NCBI GenBank assembly: GCA_902795095.1
Contig: CADBKB010000127.1
Span: forward strand, 1-6,372
Direction of reading: 5' to 3'
DNA length: 6,372 bases
From: Oscillospiraceae bacterium
Lineage (GTDB): Bacteria > Bacillota_A > Clostridia > Oscillospirales > Oscillospiraceae
Position numbers and translations under genes: made by a program. The notes under the pieces were generated by a model. It made no database searches and was not told where the DNA came from. It saw nothing but the letters and a program-made list of their open reading frames with translations. Below, piece by piece: positions 1-6,372 of the stretch. The first letter of the stretch is position 1; each line of letters opens with the position of its first letter.

Positions 1-33
1 CGCGGCAAGCAGCAGAGCCAGGAGCTTTTTCAT
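1..33 (-). CDS. 5' end of a secreted protein or lipoprotein gene, running off the left edge
   Basis: Only the first 11 codons are in the window. On the minus strand they read MKKLLALLLAA, a short basic n-region followed by a hydrophobic h-region, as in a Sec signal peptide. A ribosome binding site (GGGAGGA, plus-strand 41-47) lies 7 bases upstream of the ATG at 33-31, which fixes the start. Another ATG at 38-36 is followed at once by a stop and is not usable. The gene is divergent from the histidine kinase gene. Such signal peptides are typical of ABC-importer solute-binding lipoproteins. Two importer permeases lie nearby, so a binding protein is the leading guess, but no mature sequence is visible and any exported protein would fit. 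Confidence 0.7.
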   Translation of the reverse strand, partial: MKKLLALLLAA

Positions 34-60
34 TGCATATTCCTCCCTTTCATGGATTAT

Positions 61-142
61 TTGGGACATAAGTGATATATATTTTATATCACGAAAACCT
101 GCTGCGGCGATATGAACAATTTTATGCTTGGTTGGGACAAAA
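61..142 (+). repeat. Pair of direct repeats TTGGGACAWAA in the divergent gap
   Basis: TTGGGACATAA (61-71) and TTGGGACAAAA (132-142) match at 10 of 11 positions and lie 71 bp apart, start to start. They bracket the inverted repeat at 72-92. A looser relative, TTGGGTTAAAT, sits at 1941-1951 in front of the permease promoter. AraC-family response regulators of the YesN type often bind direct repeats, so these could be sites for the regulator partnered with the kinase. That is inference. An eight-base core match in a short gap could also be chance. Confidence 0.35.
72..92. promoter_or_regulatory. Perfect inverted repeat, operator-like, over the minus-strand -10
   Basis: GTGATATA (72-79) and its exact reverse complement TATATCAC (85-92) are separated by 5 bases. 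The 21-bp AT-rich palindrome stands out in a GC-rich region. On the minus strand it contains an extended -10 box (TG-A-TATAAA, 91-83), about 50 bases upstream of the signal-peptide gene's ATG. No well-matched -35 was found at 17 bases. A dimeric regulator bound here would block or control the minus-strand promoter. The regulator is unknown, and the half-site spacing does not fit the CRP consensus. Confidence 0.45.
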
Positions 143-165
143 TTATGTTTTTTCCGCTGCCTCCG

Positions 166-194
166 TAGACAGGGAGCCGCAAAGATGGGATAAT
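166..194 (+). promoter_or_regulatory. Sigma-70/SigA-type promoter of the histidine kinase gene
   Basis: TAGACA (166-171) and GATAAT (189-194) are separated by exactly 17 bases. Each hexamer matches its consensus (TTGACA, TATAAT) at 5 of 6 positions. Transcription would begin near position 201, giving a leader of about 23 bases that holds the ribosome binding site. This is the best-matched promoter in the window. Confidence 0.6.
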
Positions 195-210
195 AGGCAA
201 AAGGATTGCC

Positions 211-217
211 GGGAGGG
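211..217 (+). promoter_or_regulatory. Ribosome binding site fixing the kinase start at 224
   Basis: GGGAGGG lies 6 bases upstream of the ATG at 224. A longer in-frame reading from TTG at 206 would place the start upstream of this site, leaving it unused. An ATG at 220 is in another frame and only 2 bases from the site. Position 224 is therefore the preferred start. Confidence 0.8.
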
Positions 218-223
218 ATATGG

Positions 224-1891
224 ATGAGCAGGCAAAACGCAATAAAACCGGGCCTGAGCCTCCGCAGCCGCGCCATGGTGTGCATCGGCGCGCTGATCGG
301 CTTTGTGGTGCTGGTCACCCTGGTGTACGCGCTGACCTTCCGCGCGCTTCGGAACGACCTGGTGACCCGCCGCTACAACGCCATGGCCGAGGAGATAGAA
401 AGCAGCCTGGCGGACAGCGAGCGCCGCGCCCAGGAGCTGACCACCATGCTCGGCTATTCCACGGAGAACCAAAAGGCATTGTACGCGCCCTATATCTATG
501 ATCGCTTCCGGTATCTGTTGCCGGATTCCTATACGGATTTTGAATTGGCAGCCATCGCGGCCGCCGATTTTGAGACGGCGGGCTACATGCCTGTACGCTC
601 CGGGCTGCACGCCGCCCCGGACGGATCGGCCCAGTTTTTGTATATGACCCGCTTCCGGGAGGTGCAGGGCCGTCCCGGCAGCAGCGGCAGCCAAAGCGGC
701 GTCTGCGCCATTCTGTATGACGCGGCTGCCTTCGCCGGGCTGGATGCCTTTTTGACGGGCGGACGGCGGTGGGTGGTTTTGCGGGATGAGGCCGGGCGCT
801 TTGTTTTGGGCGCCGGTCAGGCGGAGCTTCCTCCCGCCCAGGAGCAGCCCATCGCCCAACTGCGGGTGGAGGAAACCGCCTATTACGGCTTTTCCTTTGA
901 GGCGGAAGCCCAGGGCTGGCGGATCACCTGCTATTTTCCCCAGGCGGAGCTGCTGGCAGATCCCTCCGACGGCATCATGGGCCGGGTGTCCCTGGCGATC
1001 GCCCTGGCGGCCTTGGCCGCCATCGGCACGGTGCTGGCCAATCTGCTGTTCGTGGCCCGCAATATCCATACGCTGTCCGCCTCGGTGGCCGGCATCCCGG
1101 AAAAGAGCGGCAGCCGGGCAGCCGCGGCGGGACTGCCGGAAATGCAGGCGCTGGCCGACCAGGTCAACGATATGCTGGCGCGCATCGACCAGGCAAACAC
1201 CGCCAGCGCGGAGGCGCATCAGAAGGTGTATGAGGCCACGTTGGCCAAGCAATCCGCCCAGATGGCCTTTTACCGCAGCCAGATCGACCCGCATTTCCTT
1301 TTTAACACCCTGGAATGCATGCGCAGCATGGCCCAGCACTACGGCGTGTCTCCCCTGGAAGAGATGATCGGCTCCACCAACCAGCTGCTGCGCTACTCCC
1401 TGCACGCGCCCTTCATCGTCACCCTGCGGGAGGAGCTGGAGGCGGCGTCCGCGTACATGCGGGTGATGAACCAGCGCACCATGGAGCGCTACCGGTACGA
1501 CCTGCGGGTGGAAGAAGCGCTTTTGCAGCGCCCCGTGCTGTCCATGCTGCTCCAGCCGCTGATGGAAAACGCCGTCCGCCACGGCGCGCGGCACATGGGC
1601 AAACGGCAGTTTGTGCTGACGCTGGAAGTGACCGCCGACGCCAATAATGAGGATACGGTGCTGCGGCTGACGGATAACGGCTGCGGCATACCGCCCGAAA
1701 TGGTGGATCAATTGAACGCGGATATCACAGAGGATCATGATGGCTTCGGAGAAAGCATCGGCGTGCGCAACCTGCGCCGCCGCCTGGCCGCCACCGACAG
1801 CCGGTGCAGCCTGCGCTTTGCATCGCGGCAGGATGAATATACCACCGTCACCGTGCGGCTTCCGCGCACGCTGGAACTGCCCGAGGTATAA
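224..1891 (+). CDS. YesM-type sensor histidine kinase (His_kinase/HATPase_c)
   Basis: This is a membrane sensor kinase of the LytS/YesM class, 555 residues from the ATG at 224. TM1 spans about residues 17-39. An extracytoplasmic sensing region follows at about 40-254; it resembles no domain I can name with confidence, although dCache-like sensors are usual in this family. TM2 is at about 255-278. A short HAMP or coiled-coil linker runs to about 345. The His_kinase motif QIDPHFLFNTLE has the phospho-accepting His at 357. The ATP-binding domain has an N-box (LLQPLMENAVRHG, Asn449), a G1 box (DNGCGI, Asp484) and a late glycine box (GESIGVRNLRRRL). In this family the kinase phosphorylates an AraC-type (YesN) regulator, usually to control sugar import and glycan breakdown. 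The start of such a regulator lies downstream at 3950. The permease promoter at about 1963-1988 separates this gene from the transport genes, and no terminator is seen after it. Confidence 0.93.
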   Translation: MSRQNAIKPGLSLRSRAMVCIGALIGFVVLVTLVYALTFRALRNDLVTRRYNAMAEEIESSLADSERRAQELTTMLGYSTENQKALYAPYIYDRFRYLLPDSYTDFELAAIAAADFETAGYMPVRSGLHAAPDGSAQFLYMTRFREVQGRPGSSGSQSGVCAILYDAAAFAGLDAFLTGGRRWVVLRDEAGRFVLGAGQAELPPAQEQPIAQLRVEETAYYGFSFEAEAQGWRITCYFPQAELLADPSDGIMGRVSLAIALAALAAIGTVLANLLFVARNIHTLSASVAGIPEKSGSRAAAAGLPEMQALADQVNDMLARIDQANTASAEAHQKVYEATLAKQSAQMAFYRSQIDPHFLFNTLECMRSMAQHYGVSPLEEMIGSTNQLLRYSLHAPFIVTLREELEAASAYMRVMNQRTMERYRYDLRVEEALLQRPVLSMLLQPLMENAVRHGARHMGKRQFVLTLEVTADANNEDTVLRLTDNGCGIPPEMVDQLNADITEDHDGFGESIGVRNLRRRLAATDSRCSLRFASRQDEYTTVTVRLPRTLELPEV

Positions 1892-1962
1892 CGCAAGTTT
1901 CACCCTTCCTCCCATGCAACGAACATAAGAAAGTCCGATTTTGGGTTAAATCTGTCCATTTA

Positions 1963-1988
1963 TTGACCAGAACGATCCATGTTATGAT
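1963..1988 (+). promoter_or_regulatory. Probable extended -10 promoter of the permease operon
   Basis: TGTTATGAT (1980-1988) is an extended -10 (TGN plus TATGAT, 5 of 6 matches). TTGACC (1963-1968, 5 of 6 to the -35 consensus) lies 14 bases upstream of it. That is shorter than the usual 17, so activator help or reliance on the extended -10 is likely. The start of transcription would be near 1995, about 55 bases before the permease start. The region 1892-2051 holds no gene and no convincing terminator. Confidence 0.45.
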
Positions 1989-2039
1989 ATGCATGACAGA
2001 AAATACAGATCCTACGAGAGGCTGGCATACAAGCGGAAC

Positions 2040-2045
2040 GGAGGG
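2040..2045 (+). promoter_or_regulatory. Ribosome binding site favouring a GTG start at 2052
   Basis: GGAGGG directly abuts the ATG at 2046, which is too close for initiation. It sits 6 bases before the in-frame GTG at 2052. The GTG is therefore the likely start. The frame is open back to an ATG at 1989, but that ATG overlaps the probable promoter. Confidence 0.65.
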
Positions 2046-2051
2046 ATGATC

Positions 2052-3011
2052 GTGCAAAAAAGCAAAACAGCTCCTGTAAACAACCTGCGGCCCGGCGGCA
2101 GACGCCTGGGCCTTTGGGCTACGCTGGTCAAATATCGGGCCATCTATATCCTGCTGCTGCCGGGCCTGATCTGGTATCTGATGTTCGCGGTGGCCCCGCT
2201 TTTCGGCCTGCAATTGGCCTTCAAGACCTACCGGGCCAACCTGGGCATCTGGGGCAGCCCCTGGGCGGGCACCCGGAACTTTGACCGCATGTTCAAAAAC
2301 CCGGAGTTCGCCAACGCCATCCGCCAGACGCTATTGATCAACGTGCTGCGCCTGCTGGTCACCTTCCCCTTCCCGGTGATCATGGCCGTGTTCTTCAACG
2401 AGATGCGCTTCAAAAAAGCCAAGAACCCCTTGCAGGTCACCTTCACCCTGCCCCATTTTCTCAGCTGGGTGGTGGTTGCCAGCATCTTCAATAACCTCCT
2501 GTCCTCCGATGGCTTTGTCAATAACCTGATCGTCGCCCTGGGCGGCGCCCGGGTCAAGATCATCGGCAATTCCAGCGTGTTTTTGCCGCTGCTGATTTGG
2601 CGCTCGGCGGGCTGGAGCATGATCGTGTATCTGGCCGCCATCACGGATATCGATATGGAGCAGTACGAGGCGGCGGAGATCGACGGCGCCTCCCGCTGGC
2701 AGATGATCACCCACGTGACCCTGCCCAGCATCAGCAATACCATCGTGATCATGTTCATCCTGGCGGCGGGCAACATCATGACCGCGGGCTTCAACCAGGT
2801 GTTCAACTTCTCCAACGCCGCCGTGCGCAAGACGGCGGAGACGCTGGATATGTATATCTACCGCATCACCTTCCAGGCCGCGCCGGACTTTGGCTTCTCC
2901 ATGGCCATCACGGTGTTCCGCTCGGTCATCAATATGCTGCTGCTGCTGATCACCGACCGCGGCACCAAGCTGCTGGGCGGCTCCGGCCTGTTCAGCATCA
3001 ACCCCAACTGA
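2052..3011 (+). CDS. Sugar ABC transporter permease, LplB type (CUT1 family)
   Basis: This is one of two inner-membrane channel subunits of a carbohydrate importer, 319 residues from the GTG start at 2052. The first membrane segment is at about 30-52 (YILLLPGLIWYLMFAVAPL), followed by the family-typical FGLQLAFKTY and a periplasmic stretch. Further hydrophobic segments lie near 93-117, 136-150, 176-196, 228-248 and 282-300. The cytoplasmic EAA loop, which docks on the ATPase, is clear at about 203-224 (EQYEAAEIDGASRW...THVTLP). Length and layout match LplB-like permeases, which in this family import polysaccharide fragments or oligosaccharides. The second permease follows 21 bases downstream, so the two are cotranscribed and presumably form a heterodimer. 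No ATPase gene is present; a shared MsmX-like ATPase elsewhere is the usual solution. The substrate cannot be read from the sequence. Confidence 0.93.
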   Translation: MQKSKTAPVNNLRPGGRRLGLWATLVKYRAIYILLLPGLIWYLMFAVAPLFGLQLAFKTYRANLGIWGSPWAGTRNFDRMFKNPEFANAIRQTLLINVLRLLVTFPFPVIMAVFFNEMRFKKAKNPLQVTFTLPHFLSWVVVASIFNNLLSSDGFVNNLIVALGGARVKIIGNSSVFLPLLIWRSAGWSMIVYLAAITDIDMEQYEAAEIDGASRWQMITHVTLPSISNTIVIMFILAAGNIMTAGFNQVFNFSNAAVRKTAETLDMYIYRITFQAAPDFGFSMAITVFRSVINMLLLLITDRGTKLLGGSGLFSINPN

Positions 3012-3032
3012 CAGGGAAGGGAGGAAAGATTC

Positions 3033-3926
3033 ATGCTGCAGAAGACTGCCGTCAAGTCCTACAAGCGGGATAAGATCATGGCGCTGGACGTGGTGCTGCT
3101 GGTAATCATGGTATTTCTGGCGCTGCTCATCGTGGTGCCCATGGTCAATGTGCTGGCCATCTCCTTTGCCACCCAAAGGGAATATCTGAACACGCCGCTG
3201 CTGCTGGTGCCCACCAAGCCCACCCTGGATGCCTACCGGGCGCTGTTCAACGACGGGCGCATTTGGATCGGCTACCGCTCCACCCTGACGCTGGTGCTGC
3301 TGGCCGTGCCCGTCAATATGCTGCTGACCACCACCATCGCCTACGCGCTCAGCCGCGGGCATTTTCCGGGCCGCAAGGCGCTGATGTACCTGATCGTGTT
3401 CACCATGCTGTTCCAGGGCGGCATTATCCCCCTGTATCTGCTGATGAAGAGCTACGGCCTGCTGGATTCCTTCTGGTCGGTGGTGTTTGCCATGGGCATT
3501 AACACCTTCTATATGATCCTGATGATGAACTACTTTTCCTCCATCCCCATGGCGCTGATCGAATCGGCGCGCATCGAGGGCGCGGGAGAATGGCGCATCC
3601 TGCTGCAGATCGTGCTGCCTCTGTCCATGCCCATCTTCGCCACGGTGGGGCTTTATTATCTGTCCGACCGGTGGAACGAATGGTATCATCCCATGATCTT
3701 CATCAATTCCACCAAGAAAACCGTGCTGCAATTGGTGCTGCGCAACATCGTCAACGAGACCAAGCAGGCGGAGGACTTCGTGTACGAGGGCATGAAAGAG
3801 CTGCCCTTCACCTCCGGCGTCAAGATGGCCTGCGTGGTGATGACCATGCTGCCCGTCATGTGCGTCTATCCCTTCCTGCAGCGCTATTTCCTCAAGGGGA
3901 TGCGCGTGGGCGCGGTGAAGGGCTGA
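3033..3926 (+). CDS. Carbohydrate ABC transporter permease, YtcP type (CUT1 family)
   Basis: This is the second channel subunit of the importer, 297 residues. The ATG at 3033 has GGGAGG (3019-3024) 8 bases upstream. A basic N-terminus leads into TM1 at about 18-42. Further segments lie near 83-105, 115-137, 147-168, 198-212 and 264-284. The EAA loop is at about 176-197 (LIESARIEGAGEWRILLQIVLP). WNEWYHPMIFI (about 214-224) and the C-terminal FLQRYFLKGMRVGAVKG are hallmarks of the YtcP/AraQ-like group. Leu codons are almost all CTG (by hand about 45 CTG to 3 CTC), as in the upstream permease. This contrasts sharply with genes right of about 4,125. A response-regulator start follows 23 bases after the stop, the usual order in such import and two-component clusters. 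Confidence 0.93.
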   Translation: MLQKTAVKSYKRDKIMALDVVLLVIMVFLALLIVVPMVNVLAISFATQREYLNTPLLLVPTKPTLDAYRALFNDGRIWIGYRSTLTLVLLAVPVNMLLTTTIAYALSRGHFPGRKALMYLIVFTMLFQGGIIPLYLLMKSYGLLDSFWSVVFAMGINTFYMILMMNYFSSIPMALIESARIEGAGEWRILLQIVLPLSMPIFATVGLYYLSDRWNEWYHPMIFINSTKKTVLQLVLRNIVNETKQAEDFVYEGMKELPFTSGVKMACVVMTMLPVMCVYPFLQRYFLKGMRVGAVKG

Positions 3927-3949
3927 GCCGCTGAGAGAAGGTGCGCTTC

Positions 3950-4714
3950 ATGCAGCAAAAGAGACGCATTGCCTTTGTGGATGACGAGCCCTGGGTGCTC
4001 ATCGGCATCCGGGACATCATCGACTGGGCGGATTACGGCTTTGAATGCGCATACACCTTTCAGAGCGCGGAGGAGGCGCTGGAGACCCTGGCGCAGGACC
4101 CGGTGGACGCCATCGTCAGCGACATCTACCGGCAGTATCCCTTCGACACCAGCCGCGTCACCTTCTTCAACGTCGACGAGCTGACGAACCTGCCGCGCAC
4201 CTATCCCGGCTGCTGCTGGACGATGATTGAGGAGCAGATCGCGGGCCCGCTCGACATCCCCGAGGACCGCTTCCTCATGCCGCAGACGATCTCCGACGAT
4301 TTCGGGGAGGAATGCCGCAAATTCCAGGAAAGCCTCGAGGCGCGCGGCGGAGCGGACCTGCAGATGCTCGGCCTCGGGTACAACGGGCATATCGGCATCA
4401 ATCAGCCCGGGACGCCCTTCGGCAGCGAGACCTGGGTCTCCCCGATGGATCCCGTGTTCGAGGAGCGCGTGCGGCGGGAGACGGGCGTCGGGGAGGACTA
4501 TCCGCTCGGCGGGCTGACCCTCGGCATCCGCACGATTATGCACACCCGGCGCATCGTCCTCATCGCGAAGGGCGAGCACAAGGCCGAAATGGTCCGCCGC
4601 ATGCTGAAGGGACCCGTGACGGAGGAGATCCCCGCCTCGGTCCTCCAACTCCACCCGAACTGCACGTTCCTGCTCGACGCGGACGCCGGGCGGTACGTCG
4701 CGGATCTTGTATGA
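3950..4714 (+). CDS. Chimeric frame: truncated response-regulator receiver joined to an N-truncated NagB-like deaminase
   Basis: The frame encodes 254 residues from the ATG at 3950, which has AGAAGG 8 bases upstream. The GTG at 3941 overlaps that site and is less likely. Residues 1 to about 59 are the first half of a YesN-type receiver domain: IAFVDDEP with acidic Asp11 and Asp12, then DAIVSDI with phospho-acceptor Asp58. The rest of the receiver (conserved Thr/Ser and Lys, alpha4-beta5) and any HTH output domain are missing. From about residue 60 the protein is NagB-like: RVTFFNVDEL (Asp76, equivalent to E. coli Asp72), GLGYNGHIGINQPG (Asn145, His147 and Gln152 at the spacing of Asp141, His143 and Glu148), then KGEHKAEM and LQLHPN. 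The first 55 or so NagB residues, including the GGTP phosphate-binding loop, are absent. Both halves lack essential parts, and codon use switches at the join. An artefactual or recombinant junction is more likely than a working fusion. The NagB end overlaps the ribosome binding site of the GH43 gene. Confidence 0.85.
   Translation: MQQKRRIAFVDDEPWVLIGIRDIIDWADYGFECAYTFQSAEEALETLAQDPVDAIVSDIYRQYPFDTSRVTFFNVDELTNLPRTYPGCCWTMIEEQIAGPLDIPEDRFLMPQTISDDFGEECRKFQESLEARGGADLQMLGLGYNGHIGINQPGTPFGSETWVSPMDPVFEERVRRETGVGEDYPLGGLTLGIRTIMHTRRIVLIAKGEHKAEMVRRMLKGPVTEEIPASVLQLHPNCTFLLDADAGRYVADLV
4112..4135 (+). other. Probable junction between two unrelated DNA segments
   Basis: Response-regulator similarity ends with the beta3 strand and phospho-acceptor (VSDI, up to about 4126). 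NagB similarity begins at YRQYPFDTSRV (from about 4127). A receiver would normally continue with something like RMPxMDG. Leu use changes from nearly all CTG to mostly CTC, Val from mostly GTG to mostly GTC, and TCG serine and GCG alanine codons become common. The frame happens to be kept. The exact crossover cannot be placed to the base; a short shared stretch such as GACATCTACCGG could have mediated it. Confidence 0.7.
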
Positions 4715-4719
4715 GGAGG
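4713..4719 (+). promoter_or_regulatory. Ribosome binding site of the GH43 gene, overlapping the upstream stop
   Basis: GAGGAGG begins inside the TGA stop (4712-4714) of the NagB-like frame and lies 5 bases before the ATG at 4725. This fixes the GH43 start at 4725 rather than at the in-frame TTG at 4707, and suggests translational coupling of the two genes. Confidence 0.8.
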
Positions 4720-4724
4720 CCGCC

Positions 4725-6188
4725 ATGCATCCGAATCCCGTGATCTGGGCTGACTACCCGGACGTCGATATTATCCGCGTCGGGGACGTCTATTATATGA
4801 TCTCCACCACCATGCACTTCTTCCCGGGCGGGGTGATCCTGCGCTCGTTCGACCTCGTGAACTGGGAGACGGCGGGCCATGTGTACGACGCCCTCGACCA
4901 TACCCCGGCCCAGCGGATGGACGAGGGCCGGATCTACTCGCAGGGCATGTGGGCGGCCTCTCTCCGCTTCCATGAAGGTATTTTCCACGTCGTCTTCGTC
5001 GCGAACGACACGCACAAGACCTATCACTACACCGCAGAATCCGTCACCGGACCGTGGACGCGGCATCCGATGGAGGGCTTCTATCACGACGCCTCCGTCC
5101 TGTTCGACGACGACGGGCGGGTCTATATCGTCTACGGCAACCGGGAGATTCATCTCACCGAGCTCGAAGCCGATCTCTCGCGCCCGAAGCCGGACGGCCT
5201 CGACCGGGTGATTCTCCGGGACGAGGCGCGGGGGCTCGGATATGAAGGCTCGCATCTCTACAAGATCGGCGGGAAATACGTGCTGACCCTCATCCACTGG
5301 CCCGCCGGACACATGCGCACCGAAGCGGTCTTCACCGCGGATTCCATCGACGGCGAATGGACGGGCGGCGACGCGCTCGAGGACGACATGGGCTTCCGCC
5401 GTCAGGGCGTCGCGCAGGGCGGACTCGTCGACACGCCGGACGGACGCTGGTTTGCCATGCTCTTTCAGGATCACGGCGCGGTCGGGCGCATCCCCGTGCT
5501 CGTCCCGGTGACGTGGGAGAACGGGATCCCGCGCCTGTCTTCCCCTCCGCAGGAGATCGAAGGCGCGCCCGGGCATCCCGGCTATCGGTACCGCCCCCTC
5601 TTCGCGGACGACGATTTCGAATCGCACACGCTCCGCCCGGAGTGGGAATGGAATCACGAGCCGGATCCCGCGCTCATCCGGGTCGGCGGCGGTTCTCTCC
5701 GGATCCGGACGGGCCGATGCGATCCCGACGCGGAGCACGCGAAAAACACCCTGACCGTGCGGACAGCCGGCCCCGGCTGCACGGCGCAGGTCACCGTGAA
5801 CGGACGCGGACTCCGGATCGGCGACACCGCGGGGATCCTCGCCCTGCAGGGGCTCTTCGCCGAGGCCGGGATCACGCGCGATGCCGACGGCTTCCATGCC
5901 GTGATGCGCGAGAAGACGGACGACGGCTTCGCGGAATGCGCGCGGATCCCGCTTGAGGGGGACAGCCTCACCCTCCGCGCCGTCTTCGATTTCCGCGATC
6001 TCGCCGACACGGTGCGGTTCGAATATGAAAAGGACGGTGCGTGGTTCCCGCTCGGCGGCGTTCACAAGCTCTTCTACCGCCTCGACCACTTTGCGGGCGT
6101 GCGCGTCGGGCTCTTCTGCTACACGTCGCGCGGGGAGGGCGGGGAGGCGTCGTTCTCCGCGTTCCGTTATTCGGTTGACGAAGAATAA
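4725..6188 (+). CDS. Glycoside hydrolase family 43 (beta-xylosidase / alpha-L-arabinofuranosidase type)
   Basis: The product is a five-bladed beta-propeller glycosidase of 487 residues. The N-terminus PVIWADYPDVDIIRVGDVYY is the GH43 signature, with the likely general-base Asp at 13. Asp122 in YHDASVLF is the probable pKa-modulating residue, and Glu174 in GYEGSHLYK the probable general acid, so the catalytic set is complete. From about residue 290 (ADDDFESHTLRPEWEWNHEP) to the end lies a concanavalin-like beta-sandwich of the kind found at the C-terminus of GH43 beta-xylosidases. No signal peptide is seen, so the enzyme is probably cytoplasmic and acts on imported oligosaccharides. In this family the substrates are xylo-oligosaccharides or arabinose side chains; which one cannot be told here. 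It sits 10 bases after the NagB-like stop. Leu is mostly CTC (by hand about 30 CTC to 5 CTG), unlike the genes left of 4,125. A strong terminator follows. Confidence 0.92.
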   Translation: MHPNPVIWADYPDVDIIRVGDVYYMISTTMHFFPGGVILRSFDLVNWETAGHVYDALDHTPAQRMDEGRIYSQGMWAASLRFHEGIFHVVFVANDTHKTYHYTAESVTGPWTRHPMEGFYHDASVLFDDDGRVYIVYGNREIHLTELEADLSRPKPDGLDRVILRDEARGLGYEGSHLYKIGGKYVLTLIHWPAGHMRTEAVFTADSIDGEWTGGDALEDDMGFRRQGVAQGGLVDTPDGRWFAMLFQDHGAVGRIPVLVPVTWENGIPRLSSPPQEIEGAPGHPGYRYRPLFADDDFESHTLRPEWEWNHEPDPALIRVGGGSLRIRTGRCDPDAEHAKNTLTVRTAGPGCTAQVTVNGRGLRIGDTAGILALQGLFAEAGITRDADGFHAVMREKTDDGFAECARIPLEGDSLTLRAVFDFRDLADTVRFEYEKDGAWFPLGGVHKLFYRLDHFAGVRVGLFCYTSRGEGGEASFSAFRYSVDEE

Positions 6189-6195
6189 AAAAACG

Positions 6196-6245
6196 GGCCT
6201 GTCGCATTAACGCTCAGAAGTAGAGAAATGCGACAGTCCTTTTTT
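6196..6245 (+). terminator. Rho-independent terminator after the GH43 gene
   Basis: CTGTCGCATT (6200-6209) pairs perfectly with AATGCGACAG (6228-6237). The stem is extended by GG/CC pairs past one mismatch. The loop is 18 bases, which is long. The stem is followed by a T-run starting at 6241 and preceded by an A-run (6188-6194), so it may also work in the reverse direction. It begins 8 bases after the GH43 stop. Confidence 0.88.
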
Positions 6246-6270: not shown

Positions 6271-6290
6271 CATATCCTTTCAGACAAAAC

Positions 6291-6340
6291 ATTGTCATTG
6301 CGAGGAAGGCGTCCTGAGACGCCTGACGTGGCAATCTCCC
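6291..6340. repeat. REP-like palindromic intergenic element
   Basis: The segment opens with ATTGTCATTGCGAGGA and closes with CGTGGCAATCTCC, the form of a widespread class of bacterial interspersed repeats (GTCATTGCGAG...GCAATCTC). An inner stem AGGCGTC/GACGCCT (6307-6313 and 6318-6324) has a CTGA loop. Outer arms ATTGC (6297-6301) and GCAAT (6331-6335) also pair. Such elements occur in many copies per genome, some of them spread by RAYT-type transposases; none is visible here. The remaining bases to 6372 show no gene. Confidence 0.65.
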
Positions 6341-6372
6341 CAAACCGGGTGACGCAGGCAGAGAATTGGTGA

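Follow-up and report, generated by a model that had tools for sequence, protein, structure and literature searches.

The window, i.e., the whole stretch of 6372 nt that was analysed, is best explained as a chimeric contig, in which two unrelated genes of two bacteria were joined at a short shared stretch (probability of about 0.94), and there is almost certainly no biological fusion in the open frame spanning nt 3950–4714. Close relatives, whole and separate, were found on each side, a breakpoint is visible at the protein level, the composition breaks and, on the nagB side, the sequence of the join is found at DNA identity in another nagB locus (L012). We infer that the kinase and permease genes share the origin of the receiver and that a technical cause of the join is to be preferred to a rare natural event. 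The sensor kinase, both ABC permeases and the start of the regulator (left 4.1 kb) would derive from a Beduinella-like bacterium, and the remainder of nagB together with GH43 (right 2.2 kb) from a Ruminococcus-like one, closely related to the metagenome-assembled genome (MAG) RUG12898. The crossing, made either by the assembler or by template switching during library amplification, would have taken place at ≈20 nt coding for AIVSDI, a stretch common by coincidence to NagB and to the receiver (around the phospho-acceptor Asp), and would happen to preserve the frame, thus generating a false fusion gene.

The frame is listed on the forward strand as an ORF of 254 aa, or of 257 aa if begun at an upstream GTG (nt 3941), with genes for a sensor kinase and two ABC permeases upstream and a GH43 glycosidase gene downstream (Table 1). 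Residues 7–59 match positions 1–50 of the 111 of the Pfam Response_reg profile at 23.5 bits, under the cut-off of 30.2, that is, no full-length PF00072 receiver above the Pfam cut-off is found in the frame. Residues 62–233 match Glucosamine_iso (PF01182) at 54 bits, above the cut-off of 27, and the NCBIfam NagB models align from about residue 57, none of the nine listed being above cut-off (best score 147.8 vs a cut-off of 326). A single frame joining half a receiver to an N-truncated NagB, as described in the first-pass annotation, is therefore borne out by the open frame and by the Pfam and NCBIfam matches.

Table 1. Features of the window and their assignment (nt positions in the window).
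Feature	Position	Strand	Assignment or evidence
Sensor histidine kinase gene (His_kinase, HATPase_c)	206–1891	+	Putative left-hand donor, by adjacency and codon usage
ABC-transporter permease 1 gene (BPD_transp_1)	1989–3011	+	Putative left-hand donor, by adjacency and codon usage
ABC-transporter permease 2 gene	3033–3926	+	Putative left-hand donor
5' part (residues 1–59), AraC-type response-regulator gene	3950–4126	+	58/59 residues as in intact P0243
Join zone, 20 nt ending with the (D/H)AIVSDI codons	4107–4126	+	Letter for letter in the nagB of L012
3' part, nagB-like gene	4127–4714	+	Whole gene in L001
Possible second switch zone, 23 nt	4139–4161	+	Identical in window, L012 and L001
GH43 glycosidase gene with GH43_C2 domain	4725–6188	+	Putative right-hand donor; adjoins nagB in L001 too

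When aligned with intact regulators, the receiver part keeps D11 and D12 of the acidic pocket, together with D58, the phospho-acceptor Asp. The identity to the intact regulator P0243 stops at Ile59, right behind Asp58, and the comparison with P0243 shows that the receiver part ends short of the switch Thr/Ser and the conserved Lys, which lie further along a complete receiver. As for the NagB part, the closest intact relative has some 44 N-terminal residues for which the alignment shows a gap in the window, among them STGQTT, the N-terminal phosphate-binding loop of NagB relatives. Both the missing switch residues and the missing loop, initially reported from the sequence alone, were thus confirmed by these comparisons. 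With respect to the NagB family (PF01182), residues 54–254 are ordinary NagB-like and residues 52–254 are 97% identical to the protein of L001, whereas the lost N-terminal region is replaced in the frame by receiver sequence.

A single open frame, close in length to a normal NagB, and its position between transporter genes and the GH43 gene could be taken to indicate a functional receiver–NagB fusion or a fold swap, in which phosphorylation would steer a sugar-phosphate enzyme within an operon containing an ABC importer and a glycosidase. However, the receiver ends before its switch residues, the NagB part is devoid of the loop, close relatives of both genes are whole elsewhere and no homologous fusion occurs among the 120 listed of 1429 homologues, making this the least credible of the readings considered; the new domain pairing or fold swap proposed at first gained no support.

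Relatives of the left half were retrieved by searching the protein collection with residues 1–60 alone, which returned two proteins out of 15 candidates, P0242 (286 aa) and P0243 (340 aa), both having receiver and AraC-type HTH domains (presumably YesN-like regulators) and 98% identity to the window over residues 1–59. P0243 shares its sequence with the frame as far as DAIVSDI and then continues with its own RLVEMSGLEL, and P0242 also diverges right behind DAIVSDI. The frame thus resembles AraC-type response regulators in its first 59 residues, but lacks the second receiver half and the DNA-binding domain. Permease 2 is 97% identical to P0121 and P0122, and 79% identical to a Beduinella massiliensis protein (P0136; family Beduinellaceae). 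The left half thus reads kinase, permease, permease, response regulator, which would also be the gene order in the donor. A genome close to the left donor did not emerge using permease 2, with best identities of 56% in 295 genomes of the order of G005 and 54% in a sample of 391 genomes of its class, and nothing at E ≤ 1e-115 in a sample of 398 genomes of its phylum, nor when DNA was compared with 2 genomes of the genus of G223 and 29 of that of G194.

As a separate observation, P0242 lacks ≈55 residues of the second receiver half of P0243, yet stays in frame, so that it may represent either a deletion variant or a further join made in assembly.

For the right half, GTDB species genomes were scanned with the fused protein, yielding 104 relatives, the best 80 of which were taken as loci. 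The best locus, L001 (CACZSA010000131.1), belongs to MAG RUG12898, titled "uncultured Ruminococcus sp."; RUG in MAG names denotes rumen genomes. It matches nt 4104–6052 of the window at 97% DNA identity, the match running to the end of the L001 contig. Its intact nagB codes for 246 aa, begins with MFDIRIMKDE and includes GFSTGQTTKNMHAIVADIYKQ; 196 of the 203 aligned residues of the NagB part are identical to this protein. The intact nagB is followed in L001 by the same GH43 gene as in the window and preceded by a GH9 gene. No DNA match (E ≤ 1e-5) beginning left of nt 4100 was obtained in the 80 loci; receiver-only relatives were probably left out of these, because the loci were ranked by the match to the whole frame. 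Each side thus occurs intact and separate elsewhere in close relatives, the right one in L001 and the left one, at protein level, in P0242 and P0243.

In L001 (nt 1028–4098 of that locus), the GH9 gene lies directly 5' of the nagB-like gene, with GH43 behind, and such a grouping suggests a plant-fibre degradation cluster.

Five genomes were compared with nt 1900–4130 of the window, and two of them showed matches at E ≤ 1e-3. In G005 six short matches were found, five of them within the permease genes of the window and the sixth at its nagB end, and in G004 a single weak one. The MAG of L001 (G001), the completeness of which is not stated, gave no DNA match to this region at E ≤ 1e-3, with 40 of the 43 first-look candidates scored. 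Permease 2 was also searched in the genomes of 19 loci at E ≤ 1e-60, and was present in four of them and absent from G001.

At the join, the receiver reads VDAIVSDI-R, NagB reads MHAIV(A/S)DI-Y and the window reads VDAIVSDI-Y. Since these readings coincide at AIVSDI, the switch would lie within the AIVSDI codons or directly beside them, and the 20-nt join zone is its most plausible position. The earlier placement of the junction just after Asp58 agrees with the end of the identity to P0243, but the switch is better assigned to this zone, where both proteins coincide. Twelve of the 80 loci were tabulated and L012 (MAG RUG12356) was then chosen; its nagB, 84% identical overall to that of the window, is identical to it over 55 nt (4107–4161), including all 20 letters of the join, of which 15 are found in L001, the closest right-hand relative. 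The 20-mer occurs in one of 295 genomes of the order of L012, at that very nagB in G005, a sample that speaks for the order of L012 and not for the lineage of the left donor. The longest exact match between nt 1–4100 of the window and L001 is 14 nt. The reading frame is kept across the join, and the join sequence is shared by the parents at protein level on both sides and at DNA level on the nagB side; the receiver parent presumably carries the same 20 nt.

A second hand-over may have occurred shortly downstream. Between the window and L001, 3 of the 12 sites at nt 4127–4138 are mismatched vs 12 of 576 at nt 4139–4714 (Fisher p = 0.003), and the two are identical from nt 4139 to nt 4227. To the left of the 23-nt zone listed in Table 1 the window follows L012 and to the right of it L001, which suggests that an L012-like allele gives way to an L001-like one through a stretch similar in size to the first switch; a local strain difference is another explanation for this pattern. 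A value of k = 21 is a common first k in de Bruijn assembly, and with a small k such assemblies can join unrelated sequences through overlaps of roughly the lengths seen here (20 and 23 nt).

In accordance with two donors, codon usage changes along the window. The ratio of the Leu codons CTG:CTC is 114:8 in the kinase and permease genes vs 12:40 in the nagB part and GH43 (p = 9e-21), and is also 12:40 in the GH9 gene of L001, which lies outside the match with the window. Mean codon log-likelihoods range from +0.27 to +0.30 in the three left genes and amount to +0.18 in the receiver part, −0.14 in the nagB part and −0.26 in GH43; only the scores of the receiver and nagB parts are independent, because the left genes and GH43 served to train the model. 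The running codon score, with a resolution no better than some tens of codons, peaks at codon 88, away from the join, and the compositional break expected of a chimeric contig is thus present with no placement of the switch at the codon level.

The join is absent from the other records searched. In a search of 5.8 billion proteins, 1429 homologues with E ≤ 0.001 were retained from 1997 candidates, and each of the best 120 spans 80% of the frame or less. The top homologue among these 120 scores 427 bits, a value that another copy of the fusion should presumably exceed, thus leading the list. This is the relevant search for such a copy, which would fall outside the length range of the search with residues 1–60. 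The protein search advised in the first-pass annotation for the same receiver–NagB architecture was thus negative among these 120 of 1429. The junction 30-mer had 0 matches in viral contigs and, judging from titles and the opening part of abstracts, neither of the two papers retrieved on a fusion of glucosamine-6-phosphate deaminase with a receiver deals with one of this kind. One of the 80 loci (L027, Dyadobacter soli; residues 14–254) reached further left, and was rejected as an ordinary NagB N-terminus forced with gaps onto the receiver.

A recent natural recombination, bringing a Ruminococcus-like nagB-GH43 segment into a Beduinella-like regulator gene by microhomology, would account for the open frame and could have used the ≈20-nt shared stretch as well, as microhomology-driven recombination can do with stretches of this size; the outcome would be a truncated regulator together with a NagB-like protein that is probably non-functional. 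This is nevertheless very unlikely: codon usage differs sharply between the two sides, each side has intact relatives elsewhere that diverge from it by a few per cent, and the 120 listed of 1429 homologues contain no second instance; moreover, the possible second hand-over would fit a graph-based joining better than one event. Less likely still is that a living bacterium harbours an in-frame receiver–NagB gene, acquired by a very recent microhomology transfer between families, the product of which folds so that receiver strands replace the first strands of NagB. Of the two origins favoured at first, junction artefact or recent illegitimate recombination, it is the artefact that is supported by the intact parents, the coincidence at the join, the codon break and the failure to find the fusion again in the homologues listed.

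According to passages of PMC8171044, de Bruijn-graph metagenome assembly produces "chimeric nodes" joining species via common stretches. The chimeric contig proposed here is similar, in that two species would be joined via a common stretch, close to a short k-mer in size, with a compositional break at the join. It differs from the cases in those passages, where the stretches are common to evolutionarily similar species, since here the stretch lies in two unrelated genes whose motifs happen to coincide. Biologically unremarkable, the finding offers a clean cautionary example: a coincidental match of ≈20 nt (DAIVSDI of the receiver vs HAIVSDI of NagB) can fake an in-frame and plausible new domain architecture, and joins of this type should be removed before any domain fusion is taken for new biology.

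With regard to the remaining sequence, no Rfam match was obtained in the window at gathering scores. Behind the GH43 gene (nt 6190–6245), a strong hairpin followed by a T run (fold z-score −4.5) is likely the intrinsic terminator of GH43. The right end (nt 6285–6372), around CATTGTCATTGCGAGG, gives the impression of a dispersed intergenic repeat; the 16-mer is absent from the loci compared, and its 12-base core is found in four of them (L040, L071, L073 and L075), all titled Mucilaginibacter.
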